Shown here: positions 8,501-51,475 of the stretch, one piece after another
How the letters are laid out: every line of letters starts with the position of its first letter
How positions within the stretch are numbered: position 1 is the first letter of the stretch
Assembly (NCBI GenBank): GCA_009746045.1
Contig: RPFO01000059.1
Coordinates: 684,501-748,500 of the forward strand
Direction of reading: 5' to 3'
Source: Mesostigma viride
Lineage: Eukaryota > Streptophyta > Mesostigmatophyceae > Mesostigmatales > Mesostigmataceae
Length of the DNA stretch: 64,000 nt
Translations under genes and position numbers: made by a program
Notes under the pieces: generated by a model
What the model was told of the DNA's origin: nothing
Databases searched by the model: none
Seen by the model: only the letters and a program-made list of their open reading frames with translations

Positions 8501-11500
8501 AGGTTTGCCTCATCTTCGGGGAACAAGGTTTGCCTCATCCTCGGGTAATAAGGTTTGCCTCATCCTCGGGTGATAAGGTTTGCCTCATCCTCGGGTAATA
8601 AGGTTTGCCTCGTCCTCGGGTAACAAGGTTTGCCTCATCCTCGGGTAATAAGGTTTGCCTCATCCTCGGGTGATAAGGTTTGCCTCATCCTCGGGTAATA
8701 AGGTTTGCCTCATCCTCGGGTGATAAGGTTTGCCTCATCCTCGGGTAGTAAGGTTTGCCTCATCCTCGGGTAACAAGGTTTGCCTCATCCTCGGGTAATA
8801 AGGTTTGCCTCATCCTCGGGTAGTAAGGTTTGCCTCATCCTCGGGGAAGAAGGTTTGCCTCATCCTCGGGTAATAAGGTTTGCCTCATCTTCGGAAAACA
8901 AGGTTTGCCTCATCCTCGGGTAATAAGGTTTGCCTCATCCTCGGGTAATAAGGTTTGCCTCATCCTCGGGTGATAAGGTTTGCCTCATCCTCGGGTAATA
9001 AGGTTTGCCTCATCCTCGGGTAATAAGGTTTGCCTCATCTTCGGAAAACAAGGTTTGCCTCATCCTCGGGTAATAAGGTTTGCCTCATCCTCGGGTGATA
9101 AGGTTTGCCTCATCCTCGGGTAGTAAGGTTTGCCTCATCCTCGGGTAACAAGGTTTGCCTCATCCTCGGGTAATAAGGTTTGCCTCATCCTCGGGTAGTA
9201 AGGTTTGCCTCATCCTCGGGTAATAAGGTTTGCCTCATCCTCGGGTAATAAGGTTTGCCTCATCTTCGGAAAACAAGGTTTGCCTCATCCTCGGGTAATA
9301 AGGTTTGCCTCATCCTCGGGTAATAAGGTTTGCCTCATCCTCGGGTAGTAAGGTTTGCCTCATCCTCGGGTAATAAGGTTTGCCTCATCCTCGGGTAATA
9401 AGGTTTGCCTCATCTTCGGAAAACAAGGTTTGCCTCATCCTCGGGTAATAAGGTTTGCCTCATCCTCGGGTAATAAGGTTTGCCTCATCCTCGGGTAACA
9501 AGGTTTGCCTCATCCTCGGGTAATAAGGTTTGCCTCATCCTCGGGTAGTAAGGTTTGCCTCATCCTCGGGTAGTAAGGTTTGCCTCATCCTCGGGTAATA
9601 AGGTTTGCCTCATCTTCGGAAAACAAGGTTTGCCTCATCCTCGGGTAATAAGGTTTGCCTCATCCTCGGGTAATAAGGTTTGCCTCATCCTCGGGTGATA
9701 AGGTTTGCCTCATCCTCGGGTAATAAGGTTTGCCTCATCCTCGGGTAATAAGGTTTGCCTCATCTTCGGAAAACAAGGTTTGCCTCATCCTCGGGTAATA
9801 AGGTTTGCCTCATCCTCGGGTGATAAGGTTTGCCTCATCCTCGGGTAGTAAGGTTTGCCTCATCCTCGGGTAACAAGGTTTGCCTCATCCTCGGGTAATA
9901 AGGTTTGCCTCATCCTCGGGTAGTAAGGTTTGCCTCATCCTCGGGGAACAAGGTTTGCCTCATCCTCGGGTGATAAGGTTTGCCTCATCTTCGGAAAACA
10001 AGGTTTGCCTCATCCTCGGGTGATAAGGTTTGCCTCATCCTCGGAAAACAAGGTTGGCCTCATCCTCGGGGAACAAGGTTTGCCTCATCCTCGGGGAACA
10101 AGGTTTGCCTCATCCTCGGGTAATAAGGTTTGCCTCATCTTCGGAAAACAAGGTTTGCCTCATCCTCGGGTGATAAGGTTTGCCTCATCCTCGGGTGATA
10201 AGGTTTGCCTCATCCTCGGGGAATAAGGTTTGCCTCATCCTCGGGGAACAAGGTTTGCCTCATCCTCGGGGAACAAGGTTTGCCTCATCCTCGGGTAATA
10301 AGGTTTGCCTCATCCTCGGGGAACAAGGTTTGCCTCATCCTCGGGTAATAAGGTTTGCCTCATCCTCGGGGAATAAGGTTTGCCTCATCCTCGGGTAATA
10401 AGGTTTGCCTCATCCTCGGGGAACAAGGTTTACATGATCTCCCGGACGTTTTGTGTGAGCTTCCCATCATGTATCTCTGCCTAGTTCATTGCGTGCCTGC
10501 CTAGTTGTGCACCTGTCTGGCTGCAGATACCAGTTGGTTCACCAATCGCCACAGTATGATTTATCATAGGAGTATCATCCGAATGACTCCCCCCATCTGC
10601 CTGTTGCCCACCACCCTCTCCTCCCCACCAATTCCTTTAACCACTGCCCCACCCGCACCCAAACGCCCCACCCCTCTTCCAAAAGCCCCCTTGCCCCCCC
10701 CCCCGCCCAACACACCTGCCCCAACTACACCCTGGGGTTTTGCCAGCGTCCGGTTCACCCACTTGCACCTTCGCTCCTCACCTCCCTGTCATTTCCTCCT
10801 CCTTTCTGTGCCGGCATCTGCCTGGTTCTTGGTTCTTGATCTGCTTGCCTTCCCCGTCCCCCCGTCCCCCCGTCCCCCCGTCCCCCCGTCCCCCCGTCCC
10901 CCCGTCCCCCCATCCCCCCGTCCCCCCGTCCCCCCGTCCCCCCCCTCTTCAATTTAGCTGTGTTGCCAGCTTCTGCCCACTTACCTACTTAAATGTGGTC
11001 CGTTTCGCACTAACACTCCCCCGCCCCCCCCCCCCCCCCCTTGCCCCTGCTTGCCACCCACGTTTGTCTCCAGCTTCCGCTTCACCTACTACGACAGGTC
11101 GCAGGGCCCCATCCACAAGTCGATCGAGCACCTGGACCACCTGGGCATGTCCCTGATCGAACGGGGGGACATTTCGGGCTACACCGAGTACTTGGACAAG
11201 TACGAGAACACGATCTGCGGGCGGCACCCAATCGGCATACTCATGAATGTGCGTGGATGGTTGAGGGTGGTGCATTACGCATGAATGTGCGTGGGGAAGG
11301 ATTGGGTTGTGGCATACTCATGAATATACTTCATGGACAATGGCTGGTGTCATGATGAGCATGTCTTGAGGAAAGGTGGGTCGTGAACATGTGTTGTTGG
11401 AAGGGAGTTTGGGTTTTTTAAAGAATATACGTGGGATTCAATGGGTTGGCTTTGTGAGTATGGGTTACTGAATGGGGGTTTGGCACTATGATTGTGCTTA

Positions 11501-11811
11501 AAAATGCATGAGGGTGCTGGCATCATGGATGTGCGTTAGGAGTGGAAGTGGGATTGCAGTTACATTATTGTTATCCATTTTTCCTAGCCTTCCCGCGGAG
11601 TTGCACGACTACTGATTTTTTATGCGGTCTCTCTTTCGCTACACTTGCGACTCTGCATGTCAATTTCTTTGCTCAGGCCATTTCAGCGTGCAAGACCAAG
11701 ATTGCGACCAAGTTCGTGCAATACGACCAGTCCAGCCGAGTGGAGAGCCATGATGACAGCAGCGTCAGCTATGCTGCCGCTGTCAGCCGAGCTATTATGG
11801 TCTCTGCATAG
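2511..11811 (+). CDS. MEMO1: MEMO1-family protein, 8 exons, 299 aa
   Basis: Exons are 2511-2577, 3564-3648, 5296-5364, 5644-5756, 6472-6583, 7634-7777, 11074-11248 and 11677-11811. All introns are GT-AG and the phases close to 900 nt with a TAG stop. The 299-aa length fits the family (human 297). Recognisable blocks in order: THAGSWYS (residues 13-20), ELQGWL (29-34), [14 protein letters not shown] (46-59), LLGSFHHAY (79-87), [10 protein letters not shown] (133-142), [13 protein letters not shown] (183-195), [11 protein letters not shown] (213-223), [10 protein letters not shown] (242-251) and DSSVSYAAA near the end. His52, His84 and Cys245 align with the metal-binding His49, His81 and Cys244 of human MEMO1. 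In animals MEMO1 is a metal-binding cytosolic protein linked to redox and cell motility signalling; its role in algae is not established. The start ATG sits in cgATGGCG, 12 codons before THAGSWY. Introns 1, 2 and 6 carry large tandem repeats. Confidence 0.95.
3301..3524 (+). repeat. (CTCTAT)n microsatellite in MEMO1 intron 1
   Basis: This is an almost pure hexanucleotide array of about 34 units, ending some 40 bp before the acceptor of exon 2. On the sense strand it acts as a very long pyrimidine-rich tract upstream of the 3' splice site. Long RDRDRD and LSLSLS reading frames here are artefacts of the repeat. Confidence 0.95.
3641..4690 (+). repeat. 34-bp minisatellite carrying the exon 2 donor (MEMO1 intron 2)
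   Basis: The period is 34 bp (for example 3641, 3675) with about 30 copies, mostly 85-100% alike and degenerating after 4650. The first copy includes the last 8 nt of exon 2 (ATCGCCCC) followed by the donor GTGAGT, so nearly every copy repeats the full exon/intron junction. Because 34 is not divisible by 3 and stops are rare on the minus strand, long MVHHHIKHS-type reading frames appear there; they are not genes. Confidence 0.95.
5960..6105 (+). repeat. TA-rich degenerate repeat in MEMO1 intron 4
   Basis: About 145 bp built from variants of tatagtata and atactta, with many short inverted repeats. It differs strongly in composition from its GC-rich surroundings. It is intronic and no other function is visible. 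Confidence 0.7.
6584..6610 (+). repeat. Degenerate copy of exon 5 sequence just inside MEMO1 intron 5
   Basis: Exon 5 contains CACCTGCCCTACATACGCA about 30 bp before its donor. Immediately after the donor the intron reads CGCCTGCCCTACATGCACA, a 16/19 match. This looks like a single tandem copy across the donor. Confidence 0.5.
8157..10430 (+). repeat. 25-bp minisatellite, about 91 copies, MEMO1 intron 6
   Basis: Unit of 25 bp with core ggtttgcctcatcctcggg followed by a variable taataa, tgataa, tagtaa or gaacaa. The phase is kept for 2.27 kb. Variants form higher-order runs: copies ending ggaaaac recur about every 125-175 bp between 8890 and 10150, which suggests block duplications of several units. 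It fills most of the 3.3 kb intron. Reading frames through it are shadows. Confidence 0.95.
10853..10945 (+). repeat. (CCCCCGT)n heptamer array in MEMO1 intron 6
   Basis: About 12 copies of a 7-bp unit, followed by a poly-C run (11021-11041) just before the exon 7 acceptor. The whole 3' third of this intron is pyrimidine-rich. Confidence 0.9.
11241..11330 (+). repeat. Repeated exon 7 donor in MEMO1 intron 7
   Basis: Exon 7 ends GCATACTCATGAAT/gtgcgtgg at 11248. The intron holds atgaat/gtgcgtgg again at 11281 and ggcatactcatgaat at 11311-11325. These are partial tandem copies of the exon end and donor, with spacings of about 38 and 39 bp. Confidence 0.7.
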
Positions 11812-19600: not shown

Positions 19601-22600
19601 AGGCAGACAGACAGAGAAGAGGCTCCGATAGGCAATACAGAGGTCACTGACAATGGAGGCAAAGAGGGATGGGAGAGATGAACTACGGGAATCATGGGAG
19701 TGACACCCGTGGCTTTGGGCGCATGAGCCCAACAAGCAAAAACAACAAGCGGAGTCAGGGACCAAGCTTTCTGTGCAGGGCATGACATGTGCAAGGCGTG
19801 TAGCGTGTTCATTCCTATAGAGTGGCAAGTGTGCATCAAGGAGTGGCAAGCGTAGAAAGGCATGCAGTGCGGATGGCATGTACCGTGCGAGGCGTGGAGT
19901 CTATCAAGGCATCGCACACGGGCCACGTGTACTAACCCCGCAACCCCCACCCACCTCCCTGGCCTCCCCGCAGAGCGGCGCGATCCTCCCCTGCACCAGC
20001 GGGACCAACATGCGGTTGATCTCGCGCTGCTTCTCGCTCGTCCAAGTGCTCATCGCCGCGAGCCGCTCCCCCAAGAACAGCTCCACCTTCTGCAGCGTGA
20101 CGGACGACAGGTGGCCCGCCAGCTCCTCGGCCACGCCCATGGACGCCAGCAGCTTGCGCAAGTCCGCCAGCAGAAGGTTGACGAGGGACTTGGCCTCGTC
20201 GCGGAAGTCGCTGAGCATCTTCTGGCAGTTTGCGAACGTGGATGACCAGATCACGCTCATGCGGTTGACTGCCTCAAGGCGGTGAGGGGAAAGCGGCAAG
20301 GGGATGGGGAGGGAGGTCGAAAGGGCGGCGCAAGGCAGGAGGAGATGGTGGTGTCGGCAAGGGGCCCGGGAAGATACCGCCGCCAAGTTACCAGGGCAGC
20401 ACGAGTGGAAGGGGCCCAGAACCAGCTGGGGATGGAAGGGTTAGTAAGGTGATGAAGTGAGGTGCAATTTGATAGCCGGCGAACTTGAGAGTGAACGTAG
20501 CAAGGGCGCTCCTAGCAACGACGAAAGAGAGAGTGGCCAGAAACCCTAGCAAGGTCACTCCTAGCAAGAGCTGATACGACAGCAAGGCTATACATATGCC
20601 GTCCGATGCTGGGCTCCGGTAGTGTAGCCATGACGCAACCAACGATAGGATGTGGACGGTTGGCCGTGGCTCGACAGTCCATGAGGATACATCAGCCACA
20701 GCAGGTGCGAAACAAGGGTAGGCCCTGCTGCTAATCTCACCGCCAGCATCATGAGCACTGCCTAAATCATAGGCACCAACGGGCATGGCCATGGGCATGG
20801 CCAAGCCCGGCCCGGGATGCGCCTGTCTCTCCAGTACACGTAGCGCGACGGTTGCTGATTCTTATGCACGTTCCTGGCGCATGCCTGTGACCCTTGTCCA
20901 GGCATGTTACTCTACTGCATGCAGGTACCTCTCTACAACACCCTATGGGTGTCCAAGCCGTGCTGCGCGCGCACACACCGATGGGCATGGCCAGGTCCTG
21001 CGGGACATTGAGCTCGCCGTACGTAGGGCTCGTATAGATGCCGTCGCGGAGCAGCATGGCCTTGTACGTGGACCTGGCGCAGGCCCACACGGACACATTG
21101 TTGTACAGCACATTGTGTCAGTCTAGTATTACAGAAATAGATGTGTTGGGCAGCAGCGTGGCCGACTACATGCACCCACGTGGCCTGGCGCATGCACACA
21201 CTGACAGATTGTTGGATAGCAGGTGGTGTTGTGCATAGACAAACAGATGCGTTGGGGGGGCAAACTTGAAAGGGTGCCCTTACACGCAGATGACGGGCAG
21301 GCACATGCCCATCGCAACACATTCAGGAATGATGCTTGTCCCCCGCGAAGCAAATCTGTCACCCCTTCATGTGGCGCCCTAACGGCACTCACCAGTGAAG
21401 GCCAAGTATCCACTCACCAGTGTAGGCAACAAATAACCATTCTGGAAAAAATGAATATCCAATCACCAGTGCAGGCAAAAAATCAATTATCAGCCAGAAA
21501 TAGATATCCACGCACCAGTGCAGCCCCCCCAGGGCTCGGTTCTCCTTGTTGACCCCCATCCCGTACTTGTCGACCGTCCGCAGGCAGGCCTCCTCTGCCC
21601 TGCGCGTGCCCCGCTGCAGCGCCTCGATCAGCTCGCTCGTGTCGTCCGCCAGTGTGCGCCGCACGCGCTGCGAGGTGGACGCCACCACCTCATGCAGCGT
21701 GCGCCGAGGGGGTGGCGCCGTGCCGCTGCCACTGGCCTTGGCACCCGCGACCGCGCCGCCCGCGCCGTTGGTACTGCCAGCACCCGCGGCGATGGCCGCA
21801 TCGATGCCTCCAATAGCGCCACCCCCTGGTGCGGTGGATGAGGCTCCACTCACGCCAGGTCTGGACACCGAGAACGGGTTGTTGGCTGTTGATGACGTCA
21901 TCCAAGGGGGCTCAGACCGGCTGGGTGACCTGCCGGTGGCATCCGTGGCCGGCGCAGTGGCGGCGAAACCCGGCCGGTCGGGCAGGAACCCCTTCCCCAG
22001 CACCTCCTCCACCTTGGCGGTCACGGCGTCAGTGTCGGCCGCGTCTAAGGAGACGTCGTTGGCCACGTGCATGGCGGCGGCCTGCACCAGCTGCTGCAGG
22101 GAGGCCGCCTGGATCTCTGCCACCGAGCGCAGCGCCGCGTGGGTGATGGAGACCACGTGCTCGCGCAGGCGGGGGATGTCCGTGTCCTCGGGCTTGGAGA
22201 AGACCCTGGTCAGGTGGGTTGAGGAGGGACAGAACAAGGGGGGAAGGGAAGGGACGCGGGTTAATGGGAGGATAAGGGGCGGTTCAGGATCGTTGACGAG
22301 AGGGTCAACACGTTAAGAGGAATTTGTAATCGCTGTGCCATGTTCTGATGGGGGATGTGGGTTAACCCCGGGTATGCTCCTAAAACCCCTCAGGCTCCGG
22401 GAGAGGCCTTTATATTCTCCCAAACCGGCGCCTCTAAATGTGTTCCAAGCCTAACTGTGGGCTCTGGACCATGGGGCAGCCTTACTGCATCCGCTATGAG
22501 TCAGCCATGCTTTGCCAATGCAGAGAGCCACTCTCTGCTGAGACGCCATCATGCCCTGGCAATTGCTTAGCCATGATCATCTTCCACCCCATGTCCGCAA

Positions 22601-25600
22601 CTTTGCAGAGCTGCTGGAATACATGGTGGTGCAGGTGCACCTCAGTTGTGCACTCCGAGTAGTTGGCAGTTTATACCCACCACCTGCAGGTTGTCACCTA
22701 GAATGTATTAAAAACCATATGCCCCTTCTCAGGGATATGTATTACATATCCTCCCCATGGAGGTATGTTCTTAACTAATTAATTAATTAATTAATGTTCT
22801 TCAACCACTTCCTGAAAATTAAGTCGTGGCTAAACAGGTACCGACCGGGAAAGCACCGTTGGGAATACAGGCCAGGGACTGGGAACAAGGGAGATATTGG
22901 GCGACCGAGGGGGTCAACCTAAAAAGGAGTGTAAGGTAAGATAGGCGTCATTGCCGATGTTGACACCCCCATCGCAGTACCCCCCCTTAGCCACCATGCC
23001 TTGCAGTCCTCTAACCCCTCACGGCCTTGCTGTTTTTCACCCCTCATTTTACCCTCCCCACGCCCCTCGCCTTGCCGCGTTCACCCCTCGCCTTGCACCC
23101 CCTTCCCCGCTAAACTGCATCGGCTTGGTCATCATTCACATATCCTTGCGACCTCTTTCCCTGCTCACATCACCTTGCCCCCCCCTGCCCACCTGACCTC
23201 GCCTCGCCCCCCCCCCCCACCATGCACTTTTTTACTTACCTGGCCTTGCCGTCCTTCTTCAGCTTCCCCTCCAGCTTAAGGCACTCATCCGCGCTGACGC
23301 AGAACACGGGCAGCTCCTCCGCCTCATCCCCAAAGTAATGCTCGCGCTGCCGCTGCGTCGTCTGCAGACCATCCTCCTCCATCTCTCTCAACAGCTCGGC
23401 CTTGCCCTCCTTGAAGTCCTGCCGCAGCGCTGCTTTGCTGTACGCGTTGCGGGCGAGCGCACACACACACTTGACCTTTTGCGCCAGGTTGGCAGCGTCC
23501 CGCTCCAAAATCCCCAGCTTGGCGTCCAGGGCCGTCCGGTCGCGCTCGTGCTGCCACACGTCAATACATTGCAGGATCGGTTTTCACCGTGGGCCATGGC
23601 AGCATTTGGGAAATCGCTTTTTCTTCGGGGATCATCACAAGCCAAGCCAGCCATGCGGAAACTATGGTCAACCACAGGCGCCGCGGGATGGGTGGGTACA
23701 CAGGGACCCAGGGATTCTGGATGCTTGGGATTTGGCATCGGATCCTTGTACCCTATCAAGTATTCTGTTTTCTGCAACCCCAGGCGGTATGCCCTGACAC
23801 AATGATACCTCCCCCTGAGATTTCCCAGGTATGGACATCATACGCACCCAGCCAATGGCCGCTGAAAGTTTAGTTCTGGAAACAGGGAAAGAGACTACAG
23901 TAAACTAGTTTCACAGCAATATATGCGCCTGCGTCGGCTATATCCGTTGTTGAACCTAGGAGGTCGTTGTTGTCATGAGAGGGACACCCTGGCAGGCAAA
24001 CACACACCACCACACGCCCACCACATAACCCAACACGTGTAAGGTCCCACCACACACACACGCACATACACGCACACGCCACCACCACACTACTCCCTAC
24101 CATGCTGCTGCCCCTACCAAACGCCCCACAAAGCTAATCCACCCACCCACCCCACCTACGCCTCACCACGCTGATCCCCGCTGCATGCACCCACCAGGAA
24201 GCGTTCTTGGTGCAGCACATCCAGCTGGACCATGGCGCTCGCCACCGCGGCCTCAAGCTCTTCGATTGACCCCCCCACGCGCGCTTGCTCCTGCGACCCG
24301 TCCCCGCACTCCTTCCCTGCCCCCTTGTGGCCGCCCCCCCGCTTACAACCGCGCCCGCCCTCGCCATCACTGCCATCATCAGCGCTAGACTCGTCCTCCC
24401 CTTCCTCGAAATCAGACTCCGACAAGTCAACCGTGACGAAATCAGTAAAGCGGCTCCCCAGGCCGCCTCCGAACCCCCCTTGGGTGGCCCCCGCAGGAGC
24501 TTGCGAGAAGTAGTCATCAATTCGCTTGAGCCGCTTCTGCCGCTGGTCCTTGAGCCGTTCGCTCATGCGCTTGCCACCCGCACGCCTCCAGCCGCCGTCA
24601 CTGTTGCGGACGCCACCCTCGGACCCCTGGTCGCTCTCGCCGCCATTCGCTAGCCTGCCTCCCTCGTCATCCTCGATGTCATCATCGTCGCCCTCCCTGC
24701 CGCGTCTGTTGCCACGCGTACCGCCCCCCCTGGCCCCGCGCTTTTGCCCGCCACCCAAGAGTCGCCTCTTGGCCCCCTTGCCCTTCTCCTCAAAGTCGTT
24801 GTCATCATCGTCGCTGCCTGCTCGCCCCTTGCCTTTGGATGAGTCCCCCGGCGAACGCTGCTCTGTGCTGCGGGTTTCGCCATCCTGGCTGGCACCCAGA
24901 AGCGCCTCCCTCTTGTCCTCCAACAGGTTCTGCAGCCGGATCAGTTCCTTCTGCTGCCGCTTAATACGTCTGATCGCCGACTTAACCTGCCGCTCCTCGT
25001 CCTTGATCTGCCGCCTGCAGAGGGTGATCTCGTCGCCCACCTCCTGTTCGTCTCTGAGAAGCCCCTCAAACTCCTCCTGGGGCGTCCCCGTCTCCCGACA
25101 GATCCACTCCAAATCCAGGTTGCTGCAGCGCCCAGCAACCAGGGGGGTGGGGTGAGCAGTAGTGGCCCTCAGGGATGTGCAAAGGCGAGATATACCACGC
25201 GACGGCAAAGTTTTGGAGCATCGCAAAGGTCTTGCAGTGGAAATGCTTTTATCTAGTTGCACACAAACCTAGGTCACTTGGGGCGTAGCCTCCCTCCGGT
25301 GTGGTCTCATAGCAGAAGCAAGTAACCCACTTCACCTTCCCTCCTCGTTCCTACCACCCATCCAACGATCTCGTGGCTCCGGTTTACGTGGGCCCACCAC
25401 TGCACCCCATGATCGTGTTGTAGAAGCCGAGCTGATTTTGACATGTAGCGTGTCCTACTACCCACCCAATAATCTCACCCTGTTTTCCTTTCCTGGTCAC
25501 TATCAGCACCTAAGTGACCCAACCACCCATGGACAGCATCCCAGCTCTCCTACCACCCCTCCCATAATCTTGTCCATTCCTCCCTTCTGCCACCACGCAC

Positions 25601-28600
25601 CCGATCATATCGTCTTCATTTCTTGTCTCTTGCATGACCTGCCCGATGATGTCACCGATTCCTCCCTTGTGCAGTTACTCACCCAAGAACCTCGTGGCTG
25701 CGCAGGTCGTCGGCCTTGGTGCACACGAACGCGAGCGACGCGTACTGCCCATCCATCATCATCTGCTGCTTGAACTCGTGGGAGAGCAGGTTCTTGGCGT
25801 CGCCGTCATCCACTGCGCGCTGAATCGGGGCCACCACCACCACACACGCGCAGCGCTGGAGGTAGCCTTTTGCGATGTTCCGGCGTGCGGCATTAGAGTC
25901 CGCCACGCCGGGCAGGTCCACCTGGCGCGTGCACGGTAAGGCACGCATGGTCGCAGGCATGACGACATGAGCGGTGATTGGTTATTGCGAGCATGATGCC
26001 GTACCTGGGAACTATCCATGCAAGCCAGGGTGTAGGTAACAGTCAAATGAACTTATAATTATGACAACTATCTGACTGATAATTATGACAACTATCAACA
26101 ACTATATGATGACAACTACCGACAACAGCAAGATCCTATCAGCGTGTTCTTTTGATGCATCCCTCCTGAAAAAAAACTCTTTTTCCTGATATCCGGTGCA
26201 GGGCCAGAGCTCCCCAGCACGCACATCGCCACTAGGTGTGAAAATACTTCCACCCATCTCCACAAGGCAAGGATGCCTTACAGTCATTCACGCCTTAAAA
26301 TGGATTCGAGTGTTTCTTCGGGTAAACCCAACTGAGGGCGTGAACCCAACTTAAGGCGTTAAGTTACCATAACTTGCGACCCCCAGCCCTGCTGATGGAC
26401 TTTTGGATGTCTTTTGACAGCTCTCGTCAAGGCCGATCGAACTGCACCAAAGAATTCACCCCCAAGGTCGTATTTCGGGTCGAAACTTGGACGCAAGTAG
26501 AAAAACCGGCTGTAGGCAGGTGAAGCACCCCACCGTGCTAGCCAAAACTGCCTAAACTTGGTGTGCTACATAAGGCATGCACGTTCAATGGGTAATTACG
26601 GTCCTTTGGCGGTAAGAGCCACACGAAGAGTCGGGAAGAGGCGCAGTGGCTATTGACCCTCTAGCCTTGACTTCCTAGCATCGACGCAAACTGTCGGTTA
26701 TCCCGTCCATGGCCACTATCACCAGAACAGGTCCAATGACCGACGGTGAACGGTTTGCACTTGAATGCCAACAACCGCGTTGCTGATCCCGGCGAAATAT
26801 ATCGCCATGTCAGAGAGCACAGCAACCCTCATTATGACAATGAGAAGGCCGGCCATAGCGGTTCAAAAGGCTGACCGACCACAGCCATGTTGCGGTGGCC
26901 GGGTGGCCAATTGGCAGGCCGCTGCCTTGAGCCCGTTCATGGACAATGGCAGTGCCCAAGATCTGCCGCAGTCCGTGAATTCTAGGTTTTAACGGAAGTG
27001 TTGGGTGGAGCGGGCTGGCGACCACCCATAAGTCGCAGCAGTCAAAACCAGTGCCACACTGCGCTAGAATCCCATTCACGCCTTAACTTGGGTTTTTGTT
27101 AGTACAGCCATCAGCCTTAAGTTGGGCTCGCCATGCAGCCAACTGCGACCCAACGTAAGGCGTGCACCCAACTTAAGCCAACCCAAGTTAAGGCGTGAAT
27201 GACTGTACCAGCAGCAGGAAAATATTACTGCAATTTCACGCAACTAAATCTTACCACGACCAGAATAAGGGTGTCACCAGCACTCCTATTGCTACAAAGA
27301 CGCCTCTTTGATCTAACCCACCAGGAGGGATGCACCGCCACTGCTATCACAATAAAGAAGAACAGGATGTAGCTAATAACTTAAAAACGGTGACTAGGAT
27401 CAGGCAGGAATGCCTCGCCAGCACTCCTATCAGAACAAAGACTTTCATACTATGTCATCGGTGACTCACCACCACTCCTAACACAATAAAGACATCTATC
27501 ACCATGAGGAGGGACGCCTCACCAGCACGGCCCCGCTTTGGAGGAAGGGCACCGGCGCGCGCATGCGGACGACCTTGACTAATGGCCATGGGGACAGTGC
27601 GTTGCGCACGTTGGGGCTGTCGATGAACCTGCTTGGCCCACGCAAAAATGTTCAAGTCAAGGGCATCGTGGCAAGGGGGGACAGCAAGGACGCAAGGATT
27701 AGGGACACGACAAGGACGCAAGGATGAGAGTGGCGACAGTTGGGGTTGTCGATGGAATCTCAGGCTTTGTAAGTGGGCAAGGAGGTTTCACGACCTTGAC
27801 AGTTACATTCCTTGAGCGTGCCCACATCGGTTGACCCGTCAGTTCCACCTTATCCCTCACGCACCCATCGACCTTTTCACTGCACCCACCGCTTGACCTT
27901 ATTAACTTCACCCACCGATTGACCTTATTTACCGCACCCACCGGTGGACCTTATTTACCGCACCCACCGGTGGACCTATTCATCGCACGACTGGACCATC
28001 CCACCACTCAAGTTGGCCTGCATAGACATTGGCCTGTTCTACGAACCCACCGGTTGACATTATTTACTCCACCCACCAATTGACCCTCTCCTGAAACAGC
28101 TTGAGCCTGCTCTCGCTGATGCGCCGCGTGCTGCCCAGATACTGCAGCATGTTGCTGTGTGCTGACATCAGCGTCTCCCTCGTCACCTCCCCATTGAACA
28201 CGCCCTCCCCCAGGACTGCCACCAGCTTGGCCTGGGCTATCCCGGCCTCCGAGGTCCTGTCCATTCGCAGCGGCGGAACGCCCCCCCCCTTGCCCCCTTG
28301 GGTGCGGCGGGCCTCAATTTTCCCCCCCGCCTCATTCTCCATGTCCTTGATGAGCGCGTTGATCTCCTCGTGCCACTCGGCCGCGGAGATGAACTCGACG
28401 TCCGCCTCAAAGTTTGTCCCGTTCGCGTTGTAGCTCACCTCTACCACCACCGCGGTGCACTGCGCACCCATGGGGTGGGTGGGAAGGTGGGCAGTCGGGG
28501 TGCCATCCCAAACATATGCGTGCACAAACATGTGTGTGTGTGTGTGTGTGTGTGTGCGCACACACACGTATGTGCGTGCGTGGGGTGGACGGAGGGGTAG

Positions 28601-31600
28601 GAAGGTAGGGGGGGCCATCGTCACAATCGCGCCGACAAGGGCGAGAAACAAAAGAGAGGACCGTTGGAGCACGAAGGAAAGTGAGTTAGTGCAGCCACGG
28701 CAGATCCCAGGGACGAGGCATCACGACTTTCCAAGGCAATCACTACTCATCCAGCGACAGGATCCCGCATCTACAGCGAAGCGTGCTACCTGCCGCGAAA
28801 TGCTGCTTACCGCGCGCATGGCGTTGGTCGGCAGCAGCCCATCGAATCCGAACATCGCGTTCAGGAGGGTGCTCTTGCCGCACCCCGTCTTGCCCACCTG
28901 CACACGCACAAGATGGAGCGGACGCACCCAGCATGCATCGTATAATGACCAGGCATAGCGCCATCCATCCATCACAATAAATCAAATATGTAGAACATGC
29001 CAGTCCTGCATAAGACGACAATGGTGGAGACCCTGGAGCGCGGCCGGTCCACCACGCCTGGCACATGGCCATCCAGCGTACTGCCATCCATCCTGCTGGT
29101 GCTCCACTCAACTATTTGTCCACTCACCTCCCCAGTCGTGTTCTTGGTGTTTCACAGATCACTGCGGCTACGAGCGGCGCAGCGTGCTTCCTAGCCAACA
29201 TCAACACCATGGTCTTATCAACATCCATGCCCGCTCACTCGCCCAACCATTGTGTGAAGCACGCGCGTACCCACCAGTGCACGCATGGAGGGGGGGTACA
29301 AGCCATGCTTGAGTCGAGTTGAGTTTATTCCCGCGCCGGTGGTCCGACAGGGTTGCAAGCAATGGTGGTCCACCTACCACGCCAATCATGGTCTTGGGCA
29401 CAGTGCACTTGTGGTGGAGCTTCTGGACCTCCGCACGCCACCCCTGCGCCGCCGCCTCCTGCACCAGTGCCGCCAGCACGCCATCAACCTTCACGCTCCC
29501 CTCCGCGTGGTCACTGGCATCCTCCTCCCTGCCCTCTTGTTTGACACTAGCCTCGAGTTTCACTGCCCCTGCCTCCTCCCCCGCTGGCCGCTTGAGTGCG
29601 ATGTCCACCTCCGCAAGCAGCTCCCTGCAGGTGCCCAGCGCCCTCTGGTACTTGGTGCGGGCGCCAGCACACGCGTCCGCGCCACTTGGCGACCTGGACC
29701 CCCTGGACCCCCCTGGCTGAGTGGGACGAGAAGGGGTCGCGCCCTCGTCACGAGATGTGACTTGCTGGGCGGCCGTAATTACCACGTCTTGCTCTACAGT
29801 GGGCTCGAATGCATCCTCTGTTTTAACTGCCGTCTCAACAGCCACCGTTCCAACAGGCACTGTGTCAACAGTTACTTTCTCCACTTCCACCATCTCATCT
29901 GCTGGGTCCCTGGGTCCTAGCAACGTGCTGCCATCCGCGGCGCCCGCCTTGCAATCACTACCAGTGCCTTTGTTGCTGCTGTCCTCGCCCCCTTCTGTGA
30001 CTTGTACGGCACTTGTAGCGGCAACGATGCCCTTGTCTGCTTCGCGCTCAGCAGGTTCCAACGGTTTTTCTACCGCCACAGGCGCTGCCGTCTGCCTATC
30101 AGGACCGCCGCTGACAGACAGTGGTGCCCCTTTCCCATCTTCACTGCAGTTCACAGTAGGGAGTTCCTCTTTCTGATCATCGCCACTAGTCACAGGAAGA
30201 GGGTCATCACCACAGCCATCTCCGCCATCCCCCAAATCAGGGGGGTCGATGTCCATGCGACCCGCACCCTGACCCGGCCCCGAACCCAATTGTGTGCCAG
30301 ATGCAAGTGCAGCGCCCCCATTCTCGATGGCCACATTCTCACCGCCGCCCGCGCTACCAGGGCCCTTGGGTGGACCGGCATCCTCCCTGACGGCATCCGC
30401 CAGGTCCGACCCCCGTGACACCTCCGCTTCTGCTAATACCTGTGTCATGGCTCCCACGTCGCCCGTGATGTCGCCGTGCCCCATGACACGCACAGGGTCC
30501 GCTGAGTGGGGCGTGAACACCGGCGGCCGAAGATAAGGAGATTGCGAGTCGGGGGTGGAGATGGTTTCTGGCATGGCCACCACCGCATTAGACTGCTTGA
30601 GGGGCGTGCAGGTGGGCTGTGAGGGTCCGGGCTCGATGAGAGGGAGCCTCCTGGGTGCCGCCACGGCTGGGGATCCCTGGTCGGGGCCAAGCACCTCCCT
30701 GAGCCGCCGCTTCACCTTCAGCTTGTACCCTACCGCCCGGATCTCCAGGGTGGTGATGAGCCAGCTGGCAGGGTCCTGGCACCATGGAATCCGGCAAGTG
30801 CCGGGATGAACGCATGGGTAAGGAGAAACGGGTTTGGGGGAGGCAAACGACACGCATGAATGTGAGAGACACGCATGAATGGGTACGGATCTGAAGTTGT
30901 GGGGAAAGTGTCGATGGGGGGACCAGTTCGCATCTATCATCCTTTCATTTCGCCCTGTCTCATCGAACAGCACGGGCTAGAGGGGACTGGGTGGGTGCCC
31001 CTGTGCCACAAACATCTCACACCGCCACTTCCCTATGCAACCATCATGGCAGAAAGGACCGCCCCCGTGCTTTACGATCCCGCTGCCCTATCTGCCTTCT
31101 CCATCTCTCAAGGCAAAGGATCCGAGTCAACATTGTTTGCGTGGAGGGCACCCTGGTGACGTGCTAGTGACCGCCAACCGTATCAACTGCACCCTGGCAA
31201 CAAGAGAAAAGACCCGATCTCCCCCATCATTTCAAGTCGACGTGTACTAAAACATGGTAACTAGTTGTCCTTAAATCATTGAGTGCAGCGCACGGCACCT
31301 GATGCCGCACTGCCCCTAACCATCACTAGAATACTGATCGCATCATAGATGGCAACACATCATACTGGTATAATGCCATGCTAGCCTGTATGCTCACTTG
31401 TATCGTCCAAGCTGGCTCACTAGCGAAAACCCTCCACGTCTGTGTAGTACTAGCGCATGTGACAAGGAATGCATCAATACGTATAATGTTTCAAGGAGCA
31501 TACAATAACCTTCCTCGTGCAAAAGCACAGGTCAAAATCAAAGGTCCTTTATCAACCTCTGGTTAGCACTCCCCACATCTGCATACTTGGTGGTATAAAC

Positions 31601-34600
31601 ACCCACCTTGGCAGCCTCCTCATCCATATGTACTCATCCTAAGTACATGGTCACCTTATCAGTATACTTGCCATATAGCAGTATGACTATGTACTATTAA
31701 GTACATAGTTACCTTGATGGCCTCCTCGTCCTAGCGTACTCACCTTTATGTGTACTTACGTCATCAGTATGGTATAAAGTACACTCTCACCTTGGCGGCC
31801 TCCTCGTCGAGGTCTGCAAGGTTAAAGAGGACCTCGCCATCCACCTTCTCCTTCCGCAGTCTCTGCACATGTGCCATTTTTTGAGGCATGCCAGTGTTTT
31901 CAAGCACACAGCGTGGTTTGCAAGCACGTGTCATGGTTCAGTTCAAGTGTGACGTGGTTTGGTAGGCAGAAGAAGAGGGTACCCGCATGCGCCCAGAACA
32001 ACAGAAGAGATGCACATCGACACCCAGATGACAATAGCACGATTGTCAGACTAGTCACCAAATAAACCAGGCATGGGCATGTGTGGCAATGATACATCCG
32101 TGTTGAGATCAACGAATCCATGGGGAACAGCGAACCCAATTCATGCACTTGCGGGGAGCATATTAGCACAAGTGTACATCCCTGTCTTTCAAATTGCGCT
32201 ACATGGTCCACCTAGCCCCCCCCCCCCCGTCCTCCCCGTCCTCCCCGTCCTCCCCGTCCTCCTCGTCCTCCCCGTCCTCCCCGTCCTACCCGTCCTCCTC
32301 GTCCTCCCCGTCCTCCCCGTCCTCCCCGTCCTACCCGTCCTCCCCGTCCTCCCCGTCCTCCCCGTCCTCCCCGTCCTCCCCGTCCTCCCCGTCCTCCTCG
32401 TCCTCCCCGTCCTCCTCGTCCTACCCGTCCTACCCGTCCTCCCCGTCCTCCCCGTCCTACCCGTCCTACCCGTCCTACCCGTCCTCCCCGTCCTCCCCGT
32501 CCTCCCCGTCCTCCCCGTCCTCCCCGTCCTCCCCGTCCTCCTCGTCCTCCCCGTCCTCCCCGTCCTCCTCGTCCTCCCCGTCCTCCCCGTCCTACCCGTC
32601 CTACCCGTCCTACCCGTCCTTCCCACCTGTCCACCCACGATGCGTGTTTCTATCTCAATCGGTACATACTGGTACAACGTGGTGCTTCCTGAGAAGCCTT
32701 CCCACCCCCAGGCATACCCGTGGGCTCTAGTCTCATGGCGTTCGATAGTCCAGCACGCGATCAACCTCAATGATGGGGAGCATTACCAACAACTACAATT
32801 GAAGTAGTGCGGAACACATCCACCTTACAATACTGTTGAAGTAGTGCGGAACACATCCACCTTACAATGCTATTAAAGTAGTGCGGAACACGTTCACCTT
32901 GATGACAGGAGGGAAGATTGATACTACTATTATGATATCCTATCTCTCTAGTTATCATGATACTACTATAATGATATCCTATCTCTCTAGTTATCATGAT
33001 ACTACTATAATGATATCCTATCTCTCTAGTTATCATGATACCACTATAATGCTATCACATCTGTCTAGTTATCATGATACTACTATAATGATATCCTATC
33101 TCTCTAGTTACCATGATACTACTATGATGATATCAATGTGGGCTACTCACCTCGATGATGGGGTCCACATCGGGATCGTTGCCCAGCACGCCCCGAAGCC
33201 ACGCTGCCATCTGCTCCACCGAGCTCTCGGCGCTGCCACCGTGGTCACGCCATGTGTCGCACAGTCAAGCATTGTGCACCGTAGAGTCATGCAGCAAAGA
33301 GTATTAGGTCATCCAGCTGAGTAATAGGCCATACTGCTGAGTAATAGGCCATACCGCTGAGTAATAGGCCATACGGCTGAATACTAGGTCATACAGCTGA
33401 GTAATAGGCCATACCGCTGAGTAATAGGCCATACGGCTGAATACTAGGTCATACCGCTGAGTAATATGCCGTACGGCTGAGTATGGCACTGCCACACGGC
33501 CTCACAGGAAAACGTCTGCGGCCCGTGCTTTCGTCCTTCAGCCCTCGTATATCAACGACAGCACTAGCAGCTTTGGTCCAGAGTTATTACTTACGAGCAC
33601 CGTAGGAATGCTGGGTACTATGAGGGTGGTATGAATCCCTGTGTCAGTCGACATTGCCACATAAGGAGGGGGAGGGGAGCAGCACCGGTCAGGTGCGTTA
33701 TACTTAGAGTGTACATTCAGTGTACATTCAACACAATGAGCAAGGGAGTTAGCATGGCAACTACTTAGCAAGCAACAGGCTATATGGAAGGAATAGCAAG
33801 CCATTCCTCCTTTCCCAACTAAACTTCAACGAAACAATGGCAAACCATGTGAACTAGAAATCCGCGGATTCAGCAAGCGAACGTGAGGGAGGAATGTTGG
33901 CAGGCAAATGTCCACATTTCATCTCCAGCGGAATGCCCACACCAGCCCGAGTAAAGCAGCAGAGAGGCCTCCTGAGGTATTGGGCGCCTGCCATTTAGCC
34001 AAACGCAACACATAGCAGTTTTGGGACACAGCCCGTCTCAAGGCACTCCGTTTGTCGGGGTGTGGTCAGGGGACAGGTTGAGTGTGGTACGCCCCGCATA
34101 TCCTCCCAGGCAACCACGCGCTAGTACGGAAGCTACAGGCAGCGGCTACAGAGGCCTGTGAGACAAATGCCACACAGAATTGTGTGCATTATGTGAACCG
34201 TTGGAGCACAGGAACAGATGCCACCGGTTGAGCGTCCACAATTCAAACTTATGCCATGTCGCCCCATTGCAGGGACAAGCGCATGGCTGGCAGTGGGGGT
34301 TGGCAAGCAGGTAAGAAACAAAACAACTACCTGCCACCCGCGCTACCCCTTGCACATATCCAGCTCTAAGAGAGCAGGTGTTCTACGGGCATTCAAAGGG
34401 AGCAGGCACGCTGCGAAAGGCACTGAGCATGCCAACCGAGTAAAGAAGGGACACCTGGCAGCCCAGCGAGCGTTCGTACTTGATCTGCTCCGGCACCGGG
34501 GGAGACACTGGGGGAGGCCTGTCCTCAGCCCGCGCTGGCTGCGGCATGGGGAGGAGGAGCTGAGGTTGTGGTGGCAACGTGGGCAGCGGGTGATGCAGCG

Positions 34601-38385: not shown

Positions 38386-39037
38386 CTAAAACCCTAACTA
38401 TTCTACTCAGCAAAGCGCCCCTTCCTCTTGGGGGGGGGCTTGCCCACAGCCGGGGCTGGCGTGTGAGCCTGGACAATCGTCTTCCACCTCTTCTTGTTCT
38501 GCATAGCAGTCCAAGCAAGAGAGAGGGAGTGAATGCGATGTTCAAACGGGGCTGGGACCACTAGGTCAGCCAGCAACTGCTGTGCAGGTAGGTCATGACA
38601 TGTTTACCTACCCTTTTAGGAATGTCCTTGGGGCCAGGCCAGGTCAGGATATGCCGCCCCGGCTGGCCAAGCCGCTGGGGGCCGGCCAGACCGAGGTTCG
38701 TCAGTGTCTACGTGCATGACTGGTGCGGGCAAGATGTCCTACGAATGCTATCCTACGCTGTCTAATCTCGTCCGAAATGCGAGGCATACCCTGGTACAAA
38801 GATTCTAAAGACCTATGCGTGGAAAACCCTACGTTCAGGGCCTGGCGGAGCATCCTGGTTACCGTGCCGTTCAGCCGTGTGGCCATCGTGTCCGTGAGCG
38901 TCCATGCCTCGGCGCCATACGTGAGCACCGTGAGGACCAGGACCTTGAGGAGCATGCGCTTGCAGTGCTCGCCCAGGTCCTTCGAGTGCCAGTAGGTTTT
39001 GAGCGAACGATGCCTATAGCCCAGGCCAGGCCGATGC
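38386..39037 (-). pseudogene. LINE copy L2, 3' half (left side of the split)
   Basis: Reverse transcriptase C-terminal region: SLKTYWHSKDLGEHCKRMLL, VLTVLTYGAEAWTL, TRMLRQALNVGFS and QGMPRISDEIRQRRIAFVGH, then frameshifted KPPP..KR, stop GAGTAG. Very close to the copy at 62.2-63.3 kb. Its homology stops abruptly at 39037 (ccgatgc) and resumes at 52350 (atgcggatgtcc), so the 13.3 kb in between was inserted into it. Confidence 0.9.
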
Positions 39038-40468
39038 CTGTCGCGTTTGCGTGCCATTATATCCTAGCCTATCACTTGGAAGGCATATCCATAGCAATAG
39101 AGTACTCATGTGTGTGATCCACTATATTAATATTCAGTGTGAATGTGTGATGCAGGTCACGGACATACTTGGCCGCCTCCTACACACAGATCTCGAGTGA
39201 TTTATCTAGTACCAAATCCGAAAGGCTTGCATCACTCCCCGGACAGGAGAACTTTTGCGGATGACTGTAGGTGTAAGTTGGCGATGCCATGGTAACCGGA
39301 GACGTCCGTCCTATAGTCAGCAAAATTGGTGCGAGAGGTCCCCAGTTCGATTCCGGTCGGATTCATTTGCAGATCGCGTTTTCCGCGTTTTCCGCGGCCC
39401 GGCACTGAACGCAAAGGTTTTCACCTTTGCGGAGTGCCTGATCAGAATACTTGGCCGCCGACCTCATGACAGGCAATTCCGTAGCCAGCCAGGTGTAGAA
39501 TAAAACCATGATGCTTTATATATTTGGAAAGCAACCAAACCATTCACATTTAATTTCAAAAGACATCGACAAGAATACAAGTGTTGTCTAGTCGTATAAT
39601 GTCGTACTTGTGCGTCACTGTCCAAATAAGGCTAAGCGGTTCTTGATAACCTAGCAGGCCTCGGGTGACGCCACACTGATCCGCTTGGCTTACGGCTGAC
39701 AGTGTCCTTAAGCGCCCCCTATCCTGTCTACCTAGCTATCCCGCTTACCCCAGCTATGGCTCACTGGCCAACGACGACCGGGTTCCTTCCCGAGTCTCGC
39801 CCACAATACACACATCATCTTGATGAAACCAAACAGTTATCACTTCCGTCAACCAATCTCATGACAATTACTCATTGCACTGACCACTCTCGGGGGCTGC
39901 TCCGGATTGTTCCACTATTAAACCCCTTGACGACAACACCAAGTTGTGAGGGAGAGTAACGAGCGAACAACGACCACCATGGCCGCTGCCGTGCTCCTAA
40001 ATACCTCCAAAAATCCCGGCATCCATGCGCTGTCGCATTTGCCAGCAAGCCGCCTGACGTGCAGTTAGACTGCCAGCAAAATGCTTAGCAAGTCTGTTCG
40101 ACAGCCACGTGCGAGCCAGCACACCGCACACTACGATCTGCATGCGTATCTAGCTTTGTCCGATGGACTGAACATCATTCCGTCTGGACAATACAAAAGA
40201 TTCGTAACTGCCAAATGTCACGCACCGGAATATTGCGCAAGCCACCAAGGCTTTGCGCCCCAAAGTCTTGTGCCTGAACCTAAGTCAGGTCACCTAAGAC
40301 TGTCACTCTAGAAATTCAGGCCTTTCCGGCGCGGCGCTCCACACCGGCCCAAGGAACAAAGCCTGCGGCGTACTGAATCGGAACCAACCAAACGTCGGTA
40401 ACGATTCCGATTACGGCAACCGCGTAACTTCTTGAGTGCACGGACGTAAATGATCACGGACGTGACAG
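39038..40468 (+). mobile_element. X1, first copy of the tandem TIR element X
   Basis: X begins CTGTCGCGTTTGCG and ends CGTGACAG, imperfect inverted ends (CTGTCRCGTYYGYG). X1 is 1,431 bp including a 282-bp SINE insertion, so 1,149 bp net. It lacks a ~306-bp segment present in X2 and X3. Short open frames (for example 40081-40311) are identical in all copies because the copies are nearly identical, not because of visible protein constraint. No transposase is recognised. Confidence 0.85.
39165..39459 (+). mobile_element. SINE copy inside X1, 13-bp target duplication
   Basis: The insert 39178-39446 (269 bp) is flanked by atacttggccgcc on both sides. The empty site is present uninterrupted in X2 (~40911) and X3 (~49620). 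It contains tgcgagaggtcccc and B-box-like GTTCGATTCC, and ends ctgatcaga. The tgcgagaggtccc string matches the 3' half of plant-type tRNA-Ala. An A-box is only weakly suggested near gttggcgatgccatgg. Confidence 0.9.
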
Positions 40469-49755: not shown

Positions 49756-51475
49756 TGTTGTCTTCTGATCAGACACTCCGCAAAGGTGAAAACCTTTGCG
49801 TTCAGTGCCGGGCCGCGGAAAACGCGGAAAACGCGATCTACAAATGAATCCGACCTGAATCGAACTGGGGACCTCTCGCACCAAATTTTGCTGACAATAG
49901 GACGGACGTCTCCGGTTACCATGGCATCGCCAACTTACACCTACAGTCATCCGCAAAATTTCTCCTGTCCGGGGAGTGATGCAAGCCTTTCGGATTTGGT
50001 ACTAGATAAATCACTCGAGATCTGTGTGTAGGAGTACTACACACGTGTCTGCACGCGAGACTTGTTCAGTCTCGCACCGTGAGACGGGCTGAACACGGCT
50101 GAAACCTTCTCTCGAAGGGGGCGTAGCCGGTACTATCGAAATCAGCCAAGCGTATATTCTGATCAGACACTCCGCAAAGGTGAAAACCTTTGCGTTCAGT
50201 GCCGGGCCGCGGAAAACGCGGAAAACGCGATCTACAAATGAATCCGACCTGAATCGAACTGGGGACCTCTCGCACCAAATTTTGCTGACAATAGGACGGA
50301 CGTCTCCGGTTACCATGGCATCGCCAACTTACACCTACAGTCATCCGCAAAATTTCTCCTGTCCGGGGAGTGATGCAAGCCTTTCGGATTTGGTACTAGA
50401 TAAATCACTCGAGATCTGTGTGTAGGAGTACTACACACGTGTCTGCACGCGAGACTTGTTCAGTCTCGCACCGTGAGACGGGCTGAACACGGCTGAAACC
50501 TTCTCTCGAAGGGGGCGTAGCCGGTACTATCGAAATCAGCCAAGCGTATATTCTGATCAGACACTCCGCAAAGGTGAAAACCTTTGCGTTCAGTGCCGGG
50601 CCGCGGAAAACGCGGAAAACGCGATCTACAAATGAATCCGACCTGAATCGAACTGGGGACCTCTCGCACCAAATTTTGCTGACAATAGGACGGACGTCTC
50701 CGGTTACCATGGCATCGCCAACTTACACCTACAGTCATCCGCAAAATTTCTCCTGTCCGGGGAGTGATGCAAGCCTTTCGGATTTGGTACTAGATAAATC
50801 ACTCGAGATCTGTGTGTAGGAGTACTACACACGTGTCTGCACGCGAGACTTGTTCAGTCTCGCACCGTGAGACGGGCTGAACACGGCTGAAACCTTCTCT
50901 CGAAGGGGGCGTAGCCGGTACTATCGAAATCAGCCAAGCGTATATTCTGATCAGACACTCCGCAAAGGTGAAAACCTTTGCGTTCAGTGCCGGGCCGCGG
51001 AAAACGCGGAAAACGCGATCTACAAATGAATCCGACCTGAATCGAACTGGGGACCTCTCGCACCAAATTTTGCTGACAATAGGACGGACGTCTCCGGTTA
51101 CCATGGCATCGCCAACTTACACCTACAGTCATCCGCAAAATTTCTCCTGTCCGGGGAGTGATGCAAGCCTTTCGGATTTGGTACTAGATAAATCACTCGA
51201 GATCTGTGTGTAGGAGTACTACACACGTGTCTGCACGCGAGACTTGTTCAGTCTCGCACCGTGAGACGGGCTGAACACGGCTGAAACCTTCTCTCGAAGG
51301 GGGCGTAGCCGGTACTATCGAAATCAGCCAAGCGTATATTCTGATCAGACACTCCGCAAAGGTGAAAACCTTTGCGTTCAGTGCCGGGCCGCGGAAAACG
51401 CGGAAAACGCGATCTACAAATGAATCCGACCTGAATCGAACTGGGGACCTCTCGCACCAAATTTTGCTGTTGTCT
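49756..51475 (-). mobile_element. Head-to-tail SINE array, 4.3 units of 394 bp, single insertion
   Basis: Units start at 49764, 50158, 50552, 50946 and 51340 (period 394), and the last is cut at 51467. The whole 1,704-bp block is flanked by tgttgtct (49756-49763 and 51468-51475), with X1 and X2 as empty sites. In element orientation (minus) it begins with a 5'-truncated unit and ends with the canonical SINE 3' end ctgatcaga. Each unit holds tgcgagaggtcccc and B-box-like GTTCGATTC, plus a ~120-bp head absent from the X1 SINE with inverted repeats gtgtgtag/ctacacac. Units are virtually identical. Small frames inside are shadows. Confidence 0.9.

Follow-up and report, generated by a model that had tools for sequence, protein, structure and literature searches.

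Worn copies of the donor junction in about one fifth of sampled introns of Mesostigma viride

A 64,000-nt stretch of the Mesostigma viride genome (the window) carries on its minus strand a SLIP-GC-like gene. The question is whether the end of an exon, together with the splice donor that follows it, is repeatedly copied into the downstream intron. The initial annotation had proposed this for seven exon ends (33151, 31791, 28077, 27523, 25683, 21516 and 20979). All seven coordinates are exact, each exon end directly abutting a GT donor, and the exons between ten hand-derived introns maintain one reading frame. A junction query of 20 exon and 10 intron bases was matched to its own intron and compared with shuffles of that intron; on this basis six of the seven introns hold copies beyond chance, 33151 being borderline, whereas 27523 is not significant alone. 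Junction 29378 is an extra positive absent from the original list. The junctions and their copies, including one in a neighbouring gene, are given below with the number of 200 shuffles that scored as well.

33151/33150, minus strand, donor junction of intron 31863..33150: copy at 32764-32778, 14/15 bases; 2/200, borderline
31791/31790, minus strand, donor junction of intron 31790-30776: copies at 31699-31730, 31641-31657 and 31596-31624 (span 31596..31730), scores 20, 11 and 19; 0/200
29378/29377, minus strand, donor junction: copy at 29118..29147, ungapped 30-base match, score 16; 0/200
28077/28076, minus strand, donor junction: 26-bp array at 27953-27976, 27927-27950, 27901-27924 and 27876-27898 (span 27876..27976), scores 14-18; 1/200
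27523/27522, minus strand, donor junction: weak copy at 27406..27424, score 13 with a longer query; 33/200 in the 30-nt test, not significant
25683/25682, minus strand, donor junction: copies at 25356-25381 and 25459-25476 (span 25356..25476), scores 14 and 12; 0/200
21516/21515, minus strand, donor junction: copies at 21455-21474, 21407-21425 and 21386-21403 (span 21386..21474), scores 16, 15 and 12; 1/200
20979/20978, minus strand, donor junction: copies at 20791-20811 and 20774-20790, weak copy at 20938-20963 (span 20774..20963), scores 15, 13 and 11; 0/200
11248/11249, plus strand, donor junction in the MEMO1 gene: copies at 11272-11294, 11311-11336 and 11523-11545 (span 11272..11545), scores 18, 16 and 13; 0/200

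For junctions 28811, 24195 and 23240 of the same gene, 17, 130 and 13 of 200 shuffles were as good. Junction 33151 fell outside the set with at most 2/200 in one run, yet reached at most 1/100 in another; at 20979 the top match is purely exon sequence, and another copy extends into the donor. At the acceptor junctions of the ten hand-derived introns, two (the introns after 28077 and 21516) lacked an equally good shuffle. Copies had also been reported in introns 2 and 7 of the neighbouring gene, which we take to be MEMO1 from the name given in the annotation and from its motifs. Of its six plus-strand introns in our gene model only one, that with donor 11249, is a clear positive (score 18), the remainder scoring 7-9, so that one of the two reported cases stands; the reported intron numbering could not be matched to the model. 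None of the three VDE introns, which score 11, 10 and 8, is among the positives, in line with the annotation.

The wider survey covers about 0.36 Mb of the 440-Mb genome, the 64-kb window counted in, and any genome-wide statement thus refers to about 0.08% of the genome, the largest part of which is a single 264-kb block. Introns were predicted with a self-trained gene finder, whose intron and length penalties were hand-tuned to the point where it gave reasonable models and found all ten known introns (10/10 hand-derived introns recovered); the first two settings were dropped because they fused nearly everything into giant genes. Family searches for dynamin, helicase and chaperonin were used solely for placing genes. 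Introns were retained if both flanking exons scored >8, the length was 80-3000 and no N lay nearby, which reduced 187 predicted introns to 98 by exon score and to 88 through all filters; 15 introns from L030-L034 and 10 chaperonin introns, the latter entered without the exon score filter, complete a set of 113. Of the ten hand-derived SLIP-GC introns, four fall below the score filter and are thus outside this set, two of them positive (29378, 28077) and two not (28811, 27523). Long low-complexity arrays are present in introns, and one array case (home block, plus strand, donor index 261995), with copies 46 bp apart, possibly follows a false exon; it is included in the 113 introns, the 26 positives, the 74 copies and the segment identities, and is excluded from the comparison of source-copy with copy-copy identity and from the extent and distance figures.

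Worn copies of an intron's own exon end and intron start occur in about one fifth of the sampled introns, and the other intron end is rarely copied. The donor junction matched its own intron better than all 100 shuffles in 25/113 introns, compared with 1/113 for an exon-interior window and 3/113 for the acceptor junction; junctions and random exon positions therefore do not match at equal frequency, and the copying is centred on the 5' junction, as had been claimed. In 30-base windows exceeding all 100 shuffles over the 113 introns, the exon side gave 0-1.8% at -90 to -50 and 4.4% at -40, rising to 10.6% at -30, 22.1% at -20 and 19.5% at -10, with 9-16% past the donor within the intron and 1.8-2.7% at the acceptor junction. 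The copied sequence differs intron by intron, in agreement with the annotation: at a score of at least 14, own-intron matches were found for 25/113 junctions, against 20 of 6863 comparisons with other introns and 122 of 12656 in which an own donor was joined to a foreign exon end. A common sequence in many introns, as expected of an introner or mobile intron element, was accordingly not found (20/6863 at this score).

Junction copies also recur on other contigs, with 4/27 introns outside the home contig positive, three of them in the two chaperonin genes CCT theta and CCT beta, whose ten introns include three with junction copies. In CCT theta, identified, like the chaperonin exons, by PDB alignment, we found a fresh direct duplication with a 40-bp unit made of 31 exon and 9 intron bases, common to two allele-like contigs sharing 97.9% identity over 3 kb. 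When the positive introns are removed, the PDB alignments of both proteins are gap-free at the joins, and the first donor must therefore serve in those introns. Near one of its exon ends the CCT beta protein carries 5 inserted residues, and the donor there (score 7, negative) is thus possibly misplaced. Tandem duplication spanning a splice donor, with direct-orientation copies that include exon end and donor, is seen in CCT theta, in the array after 28077 and in the 25/113 introns; the copies are contiguous with a constant period in some cases (28077, CCT theta) and irregularly spaced in many others. That the junction itself is the unit of duplication is not established: the freshest unit spans 40 bp, 31 of them from the exon, and older cases retain weak homology farther into the intron, not farther into the exon. 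Units may originally have been longer and have decayed wherever their source lacked protection.

The donor motif by itself does not attract such copies. Outside arrays, 17/93 true donors were duplicated, compared with 1/70 strong cryptic donors of donor-negative introns and 3/147 intergenic cryptic donors. An apparent equality of cryptic and true donors (18.2% of 88 in donor-negative introns versus 25% of 80; Fisher 0.35) was rejected, 15/16 matches lying in a single array of one intron. Any cryptic-donor match was present in 2/31 donor-negative introns and in 6/19 donor-positive ones, the latter being expected if the matches are the copies themselves. An intergenic control of 0.3% of 300 windows was discarded as unfair, arrays being masked there and unmasked in introns; in matched windows, intergenic and intron frequencies were 10.4% versus 17.3% unmasked and 2.4% versus 4.2% with long arrays masked. 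Setting junctions against intron interiors, with three classes of interior windows from introns holding at least 5 of them (104/113; 88/97), gave a ratio of 2.36 (CI 1.50-3.63) over all introns and 4.5 (CI 2.8-7.2; bootstrap P(ratio <=2) 0.001) when introns with long tandem arrays were left out. For the youngest copies (score at least 20) it was 0.68 (CI 0.20-1.54) and 2.4 (0.4-8.8), respectively, and near-identical copies (score at least 22) were found for 0.9% of 113 junctions versus 8.9% of 1339 interior windows, where they cluster in arrays.

The copies themselves look neutral, given that GT is lost from part of them (retained in 56/74, or 46/64 without the array case) and that the best-copy shifts are spread across all three frames (7, 6 and 9). 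If used, copy donors with GT and a score of at least 3 would cause a frameshift or bring in a stop codon in 50/53 cases (40/43 without the array case); in two introns, including that after 21516, a copy donor is usable in frame with no stop. Source-copy identity exceeds copy-copy identity in 15/17 multi-copy introns (means 0.76 versus 0.69), a comparison biased in this direction by the selection of copies for their likeness to the source. By segment, identity is 0.77 in the exon-derived part (-12..0) and 0.84 in the donor (0..+6). In the 15 cases measured, the exon part of the copies is short, averaging 19 nt with a median of 18 nt. The smallest shift has a median of 63 nt, and the 64 copies lie at a median of +132 from the donor and at least 103 nt from the acceptor. 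Up to 8 copies occur in one intron, the array case aside, and some contain AG/GT. Introns had been proposed to lengthen in this way; positive introns are indeed longer (median 745 versus 536 nt, p 0.006), which may merely reflect more target sequence.

We propose, at a probability of roughly 60%, that continued use of the first donor makes tandem duplications across the donor tolerable and that selection on their source keeps them recognisable, duplications of the acceptor being purged. Short tandem duplications with units of tens of bp would arise in these genes, some spanning the 5' splice site and leaving exon end and donor repeated downstream within the intron. With the first donor still spliced, as we infer, the mRNA would be unchanged and the duplication would persist, often to be re-duplicated. 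Selection would keep the exon end and functional donor of the first copy constant, with wear confined to later copies, so that the pair would remain recognisable for longer, most of all near the junction; an acceptor-spanning duplication would place a complete acceptor upstream, causing mis-splicing and removal. The data suggest tolerance of small duplications spanning the first splice site, and such duplications may help introns grow. The fall of the profile into the exon, which is expected of units spanning the junction, favours tolerated duplication, as do the fresh CCT theta unit, the neutral look of the copies, the higher source-copy identity and the ratio of 2.36 over all introns. Against it stand the ratio of 4.5, higher than protection of the source, which by our reasoning permits about 2 at most, should yield; the rarity of near-identical copies at the junction, though creation should be equal there; the short exon parts relative to the 63-nt shift, which random breakpoints would make longer; and the in-frame, stop-free copy donors of two introns.

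That same 4.5-fold excess, together with the contrast of true donors (17/93) with cryptic (1/70) and intergenic ones (3/147) and the closeness of the copies to the donor, lends some weight to a less probable alternative, in which the 5' splice site in use acts as a mutational hotspot, with template switching or damage tied to transcription or splicing copying some 30 junction bases into the intron. In this lineage such a hotspot would act repeatedly and lengthen introns from their 5' ends, the splicing machinery taking the first of several near-identical donors. However, the ratio falls to about 2 over all introns, and the youngest copies have no clear junction enrichment (0.68 or 2.4, with wide intervals). 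It is unlikely that the extra donors are retained for function as alternative 5' splice sites, decoys or U1 snRNP docking sites in long introns. The strength of the copy donors (about that of the true donor in 17/26 positive introns, array case included) and the 8 copies in one intron would fit such a role, but the exon-derived bases, unneeded for U1 docking, are conserved nearly like the donor (0.77 versus 0.84), GT in 46/64 copies is about what general identity predicts, frame-keeping shifts are not favoured, and splicing at 50/53 usable copy donors would disrupt the frame or introduce a stop.

Chance or composition (GT-rich introns with recurring donor-like words), or wrong gene models, appears highly improbable. 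Long low-complexity arrays, the possibly false exon at 261995 and a reverse-complement junction that matched a little more often than expected at p 0.05 (10/103) could be read that way, but at p 0.01 the reverse complement gave 3/103, matches to other introns or with foreign exon ends are rare (20/6863 and 122/12656 at a score of at least 14), and the chaperonin exons agree with the PDB check. Rogers-type intron gain reportedly creates new introns by tandem duplication of AGGT segments, and introns born in this way from an AGGT-bearing exon segment might keep leftover units as copies. It resembles our cases in duplicating across splice-site-like sequence, and AG/GT does occur in some copies. 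Here, by contrast, the copies sit in existing introns without involvement of the acceptor, donor and own acceptor junctions matching in 0/113 introns at a score of at least 11 (cross pairs 1.7%), which makes this origin the most improbable of all.

Tandem alternative splice sites are separated by a few bases; here the distances are tens to hundreds of bases and exon sequence is copied too. Such neighbouring alternative sites are treated in PMC2423196. A single-gene precedent for a splice junction turned tandem array is human IFI6 (6-16), where, as outlined in PMC4526556 after Turri et al. 1995, exon-end repeat units of a donor minisatellite act as splice donors. That account concerns one gene with downstream units used as donors, whereas here about one fifth of sampled introns are affected and the copies are worn, irregularly spaced and would mostly break the frame if used. 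In Chlamydomonas and Volvox, introns are densest in tandem repeats, which lie more near intron-exon junctions and toward intron ends, with GT/AC dinucleotides abundant (Zhao et al. 2013, PMC3887541); the passages on these repeats say nothing on junction copies themselves or on a donor/acceptor difference. Were the hotspot real, it would represent a mode of intron growth beginning at the splice site. The donor-acceptor contrast (25/113 versus 3/113) may directly measure selection on splice-site duplication, and the positive introns with a comparably strong copy, 17 of 26, offer many natural tests of spliceosome choice among near-identical donors.

Duplications across the donor junction are common and persist in the introns sampled here, whereas those across the acceptor are rare, below even the level of the intron interior. 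Ten introns of the minus-strand SLIP-GC-like gene, each named below by its preceding exon end, were delimited by hand in the sequence; a single reading frame is kept through the exons between them, one of which encodes VGKTGCGKS, a motif that we take to be P-loop-like. The initial annotation had described further copies of the exon end after seven exons of this gene, and all seven ends lie at exactly the coordinates claimed, directly followed by GT. Each junction (20 exon plus 10 intron bases) was aligned to the remainder of its own intron and to 200 dinucleotide shuffles. At most 2/200 shuffles were as good for junctions 33151, 31791, 29378, 28077, 25683 and 21516, and also for 20979; 33151 is borderline, reaching this level in one run and not in another. 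Significance was absent at 27523 (33/200 shuffles as good), 28811 (17/200), 23240 (13/200) and 24195 (130/200), so that the copies reported after 33151 (borderline), 31791, 28077, 25683, 21516 and 20979 are upheld and those after 27523 are not. Two of the ten acceptor junctions likewise scored above all 200 shuffles in this test and are an exception to the donor-only tendency:

Intron 28076-27629, minus strand, acceptor junction with an upstream copy
Intron 21515-21074, minus strand, acceptor junction with an upstream copy

The assembly around the window comprises 440 Mb in 2243 contigs, from which about 0.36 Mb, window included, was sampled (200 kb around the window, six 10-kb stretches from other places, eight short loci and another three small pieces). 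Introns were predicted by a gene finder of the generalised hidden Markov type, with the SLIP-GC-like gene as seed and the sample as training set; it recovers the ten hand-derived introns, which are also its seed. Filtering left 103 introns, and ten from two chaperonin genes brought the number to 113. The predicted chaperonin fragments align along their length with CCT beta and CCT theta in PDB, by which those exon joins are checked, save for a 5-residue insertion in CCT beta near one negative donor.

The share of 30-base windows scoring above all 100 shuffles in these 113 introns was 0-1.8% at exon positions -90 to -50, 4.4% at -40 and 10.6% at -30, rose to 22.1% at -20 and 19.5% at -10, and was 9-16% in the intron interior and 1.8-2.7% at the acceptor junction. 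In counts, the donor reached this level in 25/113 introns versus 3/113 for the acceptor (Fisher 8e-6), 1/113 for the exon -60 window (2e-7), 11/106 for the intron +60 window (0.03) and 11/102 for the intron -130 window (0.03). The matches are specific to the intron: a score of at least 14 was found in the own intron for 25/113 junctions, in other introns for 20/6863, and for 122/12656 when the own donor was joined to a foreign exon end. In 73 pairs of consecutive introns, a donor junction matched its own intron 17 times and the preceding intron once, and the previous donor never matched the next intron. The reverse complement of the junction gave 3/103 at p 0.01 and 10/103 at p 0.05. Positive donors numbered 20/106 with the SLIP-GC-like gene excluded and 4/27 off the home contig; since just 1/15 donors in the initial set taken from other contigs reached p 0.01, the evidence there is thin and draws on the chaperonin genes (3/10 positive) for its support.

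The simplest account of this asymmetry would be use of whichever donor is made first, so that a downstream copy is harmless, while an acceptor copy, lying upstream, would be used first. We infer use of the first donor from the reading frames and the chaperonin proteins. A less probable rival explanation would be that donors themselves attract duplication. Long arrays occur within sampled introns; removing introns with an array of 200 bases and at least 4 copies left 97, with 20/97 at the junction, 2/97 at the acceptor and about 2-9% in interior windows. Without any Tandem Repeats Finder array, 65 introns gave 13/65, 1/65 and about 0-5%, a filter that flatters the junction because it also drops recent interior duplications. 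The bootstrapped junction/interior ratio came to 2.36 (1.50-3.63) when all introns were counted; leaving out those with long arrays raised it to 4.54 (2.77-7.24). At a score of at least 16 the two values were 1.36 (0.72-2.47) and 3.57 (1.73-6.80), respectively. By our reasoning, selection on the source would halve the divergence rate of a pair and so explain a ratio of up to 2; the ratios fall between such selection and a genuine hotspot. Copies of strong cryptic donors are rare (1/70 outside arrays in donor-negative introns, 3/147 intergenic), so the cause is not the GT-rich motif by itself.

The 26 introns positive at no more than 1/100 shuffles as good hold 1-10 donor-spanning copies each, 74 in total with GT in 56, or 64 with GT in 46 when one array case, possibly a false exon, is left out. 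Leaving out that case, the median copy position is +132, three quarters of the copies fall in the 5'-most third of the intron, and the nearest copy to an acceptor is at least 103 nt away. Among the best copies, 7 keep the frame, 6 shift it by 1 and 9 by 2. Use of 50 of the 53 copies having a usable donor would be expected to cause a frameshift or stop, the three exceptions sitting in two introns, one of them after 21516; in 17/26 introns a copy donor is at least about equal in strength to the true one. Identity between source and copy is 0.77 at -12..0, 0.84 at 0..+6, 0.60 at +6..+20 and 0.56 at +20..+50, but farther into the exon 0.51 at -25..-12 and 0.50 at -40..-25 (random places, 0.41-0.51): homology declines gradually into the intron and ends early in the exon.

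CCT theta holds the most recent case, 31 exon plus 9 intron bases directly repeated as a 40-bp unit; both L035 and L036, two sampled 3-kb contig pieces with 97.9% identity across 3 kb, carry it. One base differs inside the copy, a 5-base indel adjoins it and more bases differ downstream. Small indels, for example of 18 and 10 bases, also separate the two pieces. From their sequences L035 and L036 look like alleles; this identity and the small indels suggest that the assembly carries both alleles in places, and such seeming allele pairs can reveal repeat dynamics.

In human IFI6, as cited in PMC4526556, a minisatellite supplies several splice donors, and PMC3887541 describes tandem repeats as abundant in the introns of Chlamydomonas and Volvox, close to their junctions with exons. 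None of the matches listed from the open-licence literature described, by title and start of abstract, copying of the junction as habitual across many introns.

Two open stretches in the window are probably non-LTR retroelement remains, judging by sequence:

62164-63186, plus strand, open stretch with a YADD-like motif
38833-39057, minus strand, open stretch resembling the later part of 62164-63186

The YADD-like motif is presumably that of reverse transcriptase; 62164-63186 had no Pfam match at E 0.001. The window also holds the following repeats:

49763-51469, 394-bp unit, 4.3 copies, reported 100% matching
8156-10431, 25-bp minisatellite, 91 copies, within the predicted intron 7778-11073 of the neighbouring MEMO1 gene
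55040-55298, nearly perfect tetranucleotide array (TGGT)65
61232-61628, nearly perfect tetranucleotide array (CCAT)99

The 394-bp unit includes GAATCGAACTGGGGACCTC, which we assume to be B-box-like, and on that ground is perhaps tRNA-derived. A single stretch similar to this unit lies near 39200-39450.
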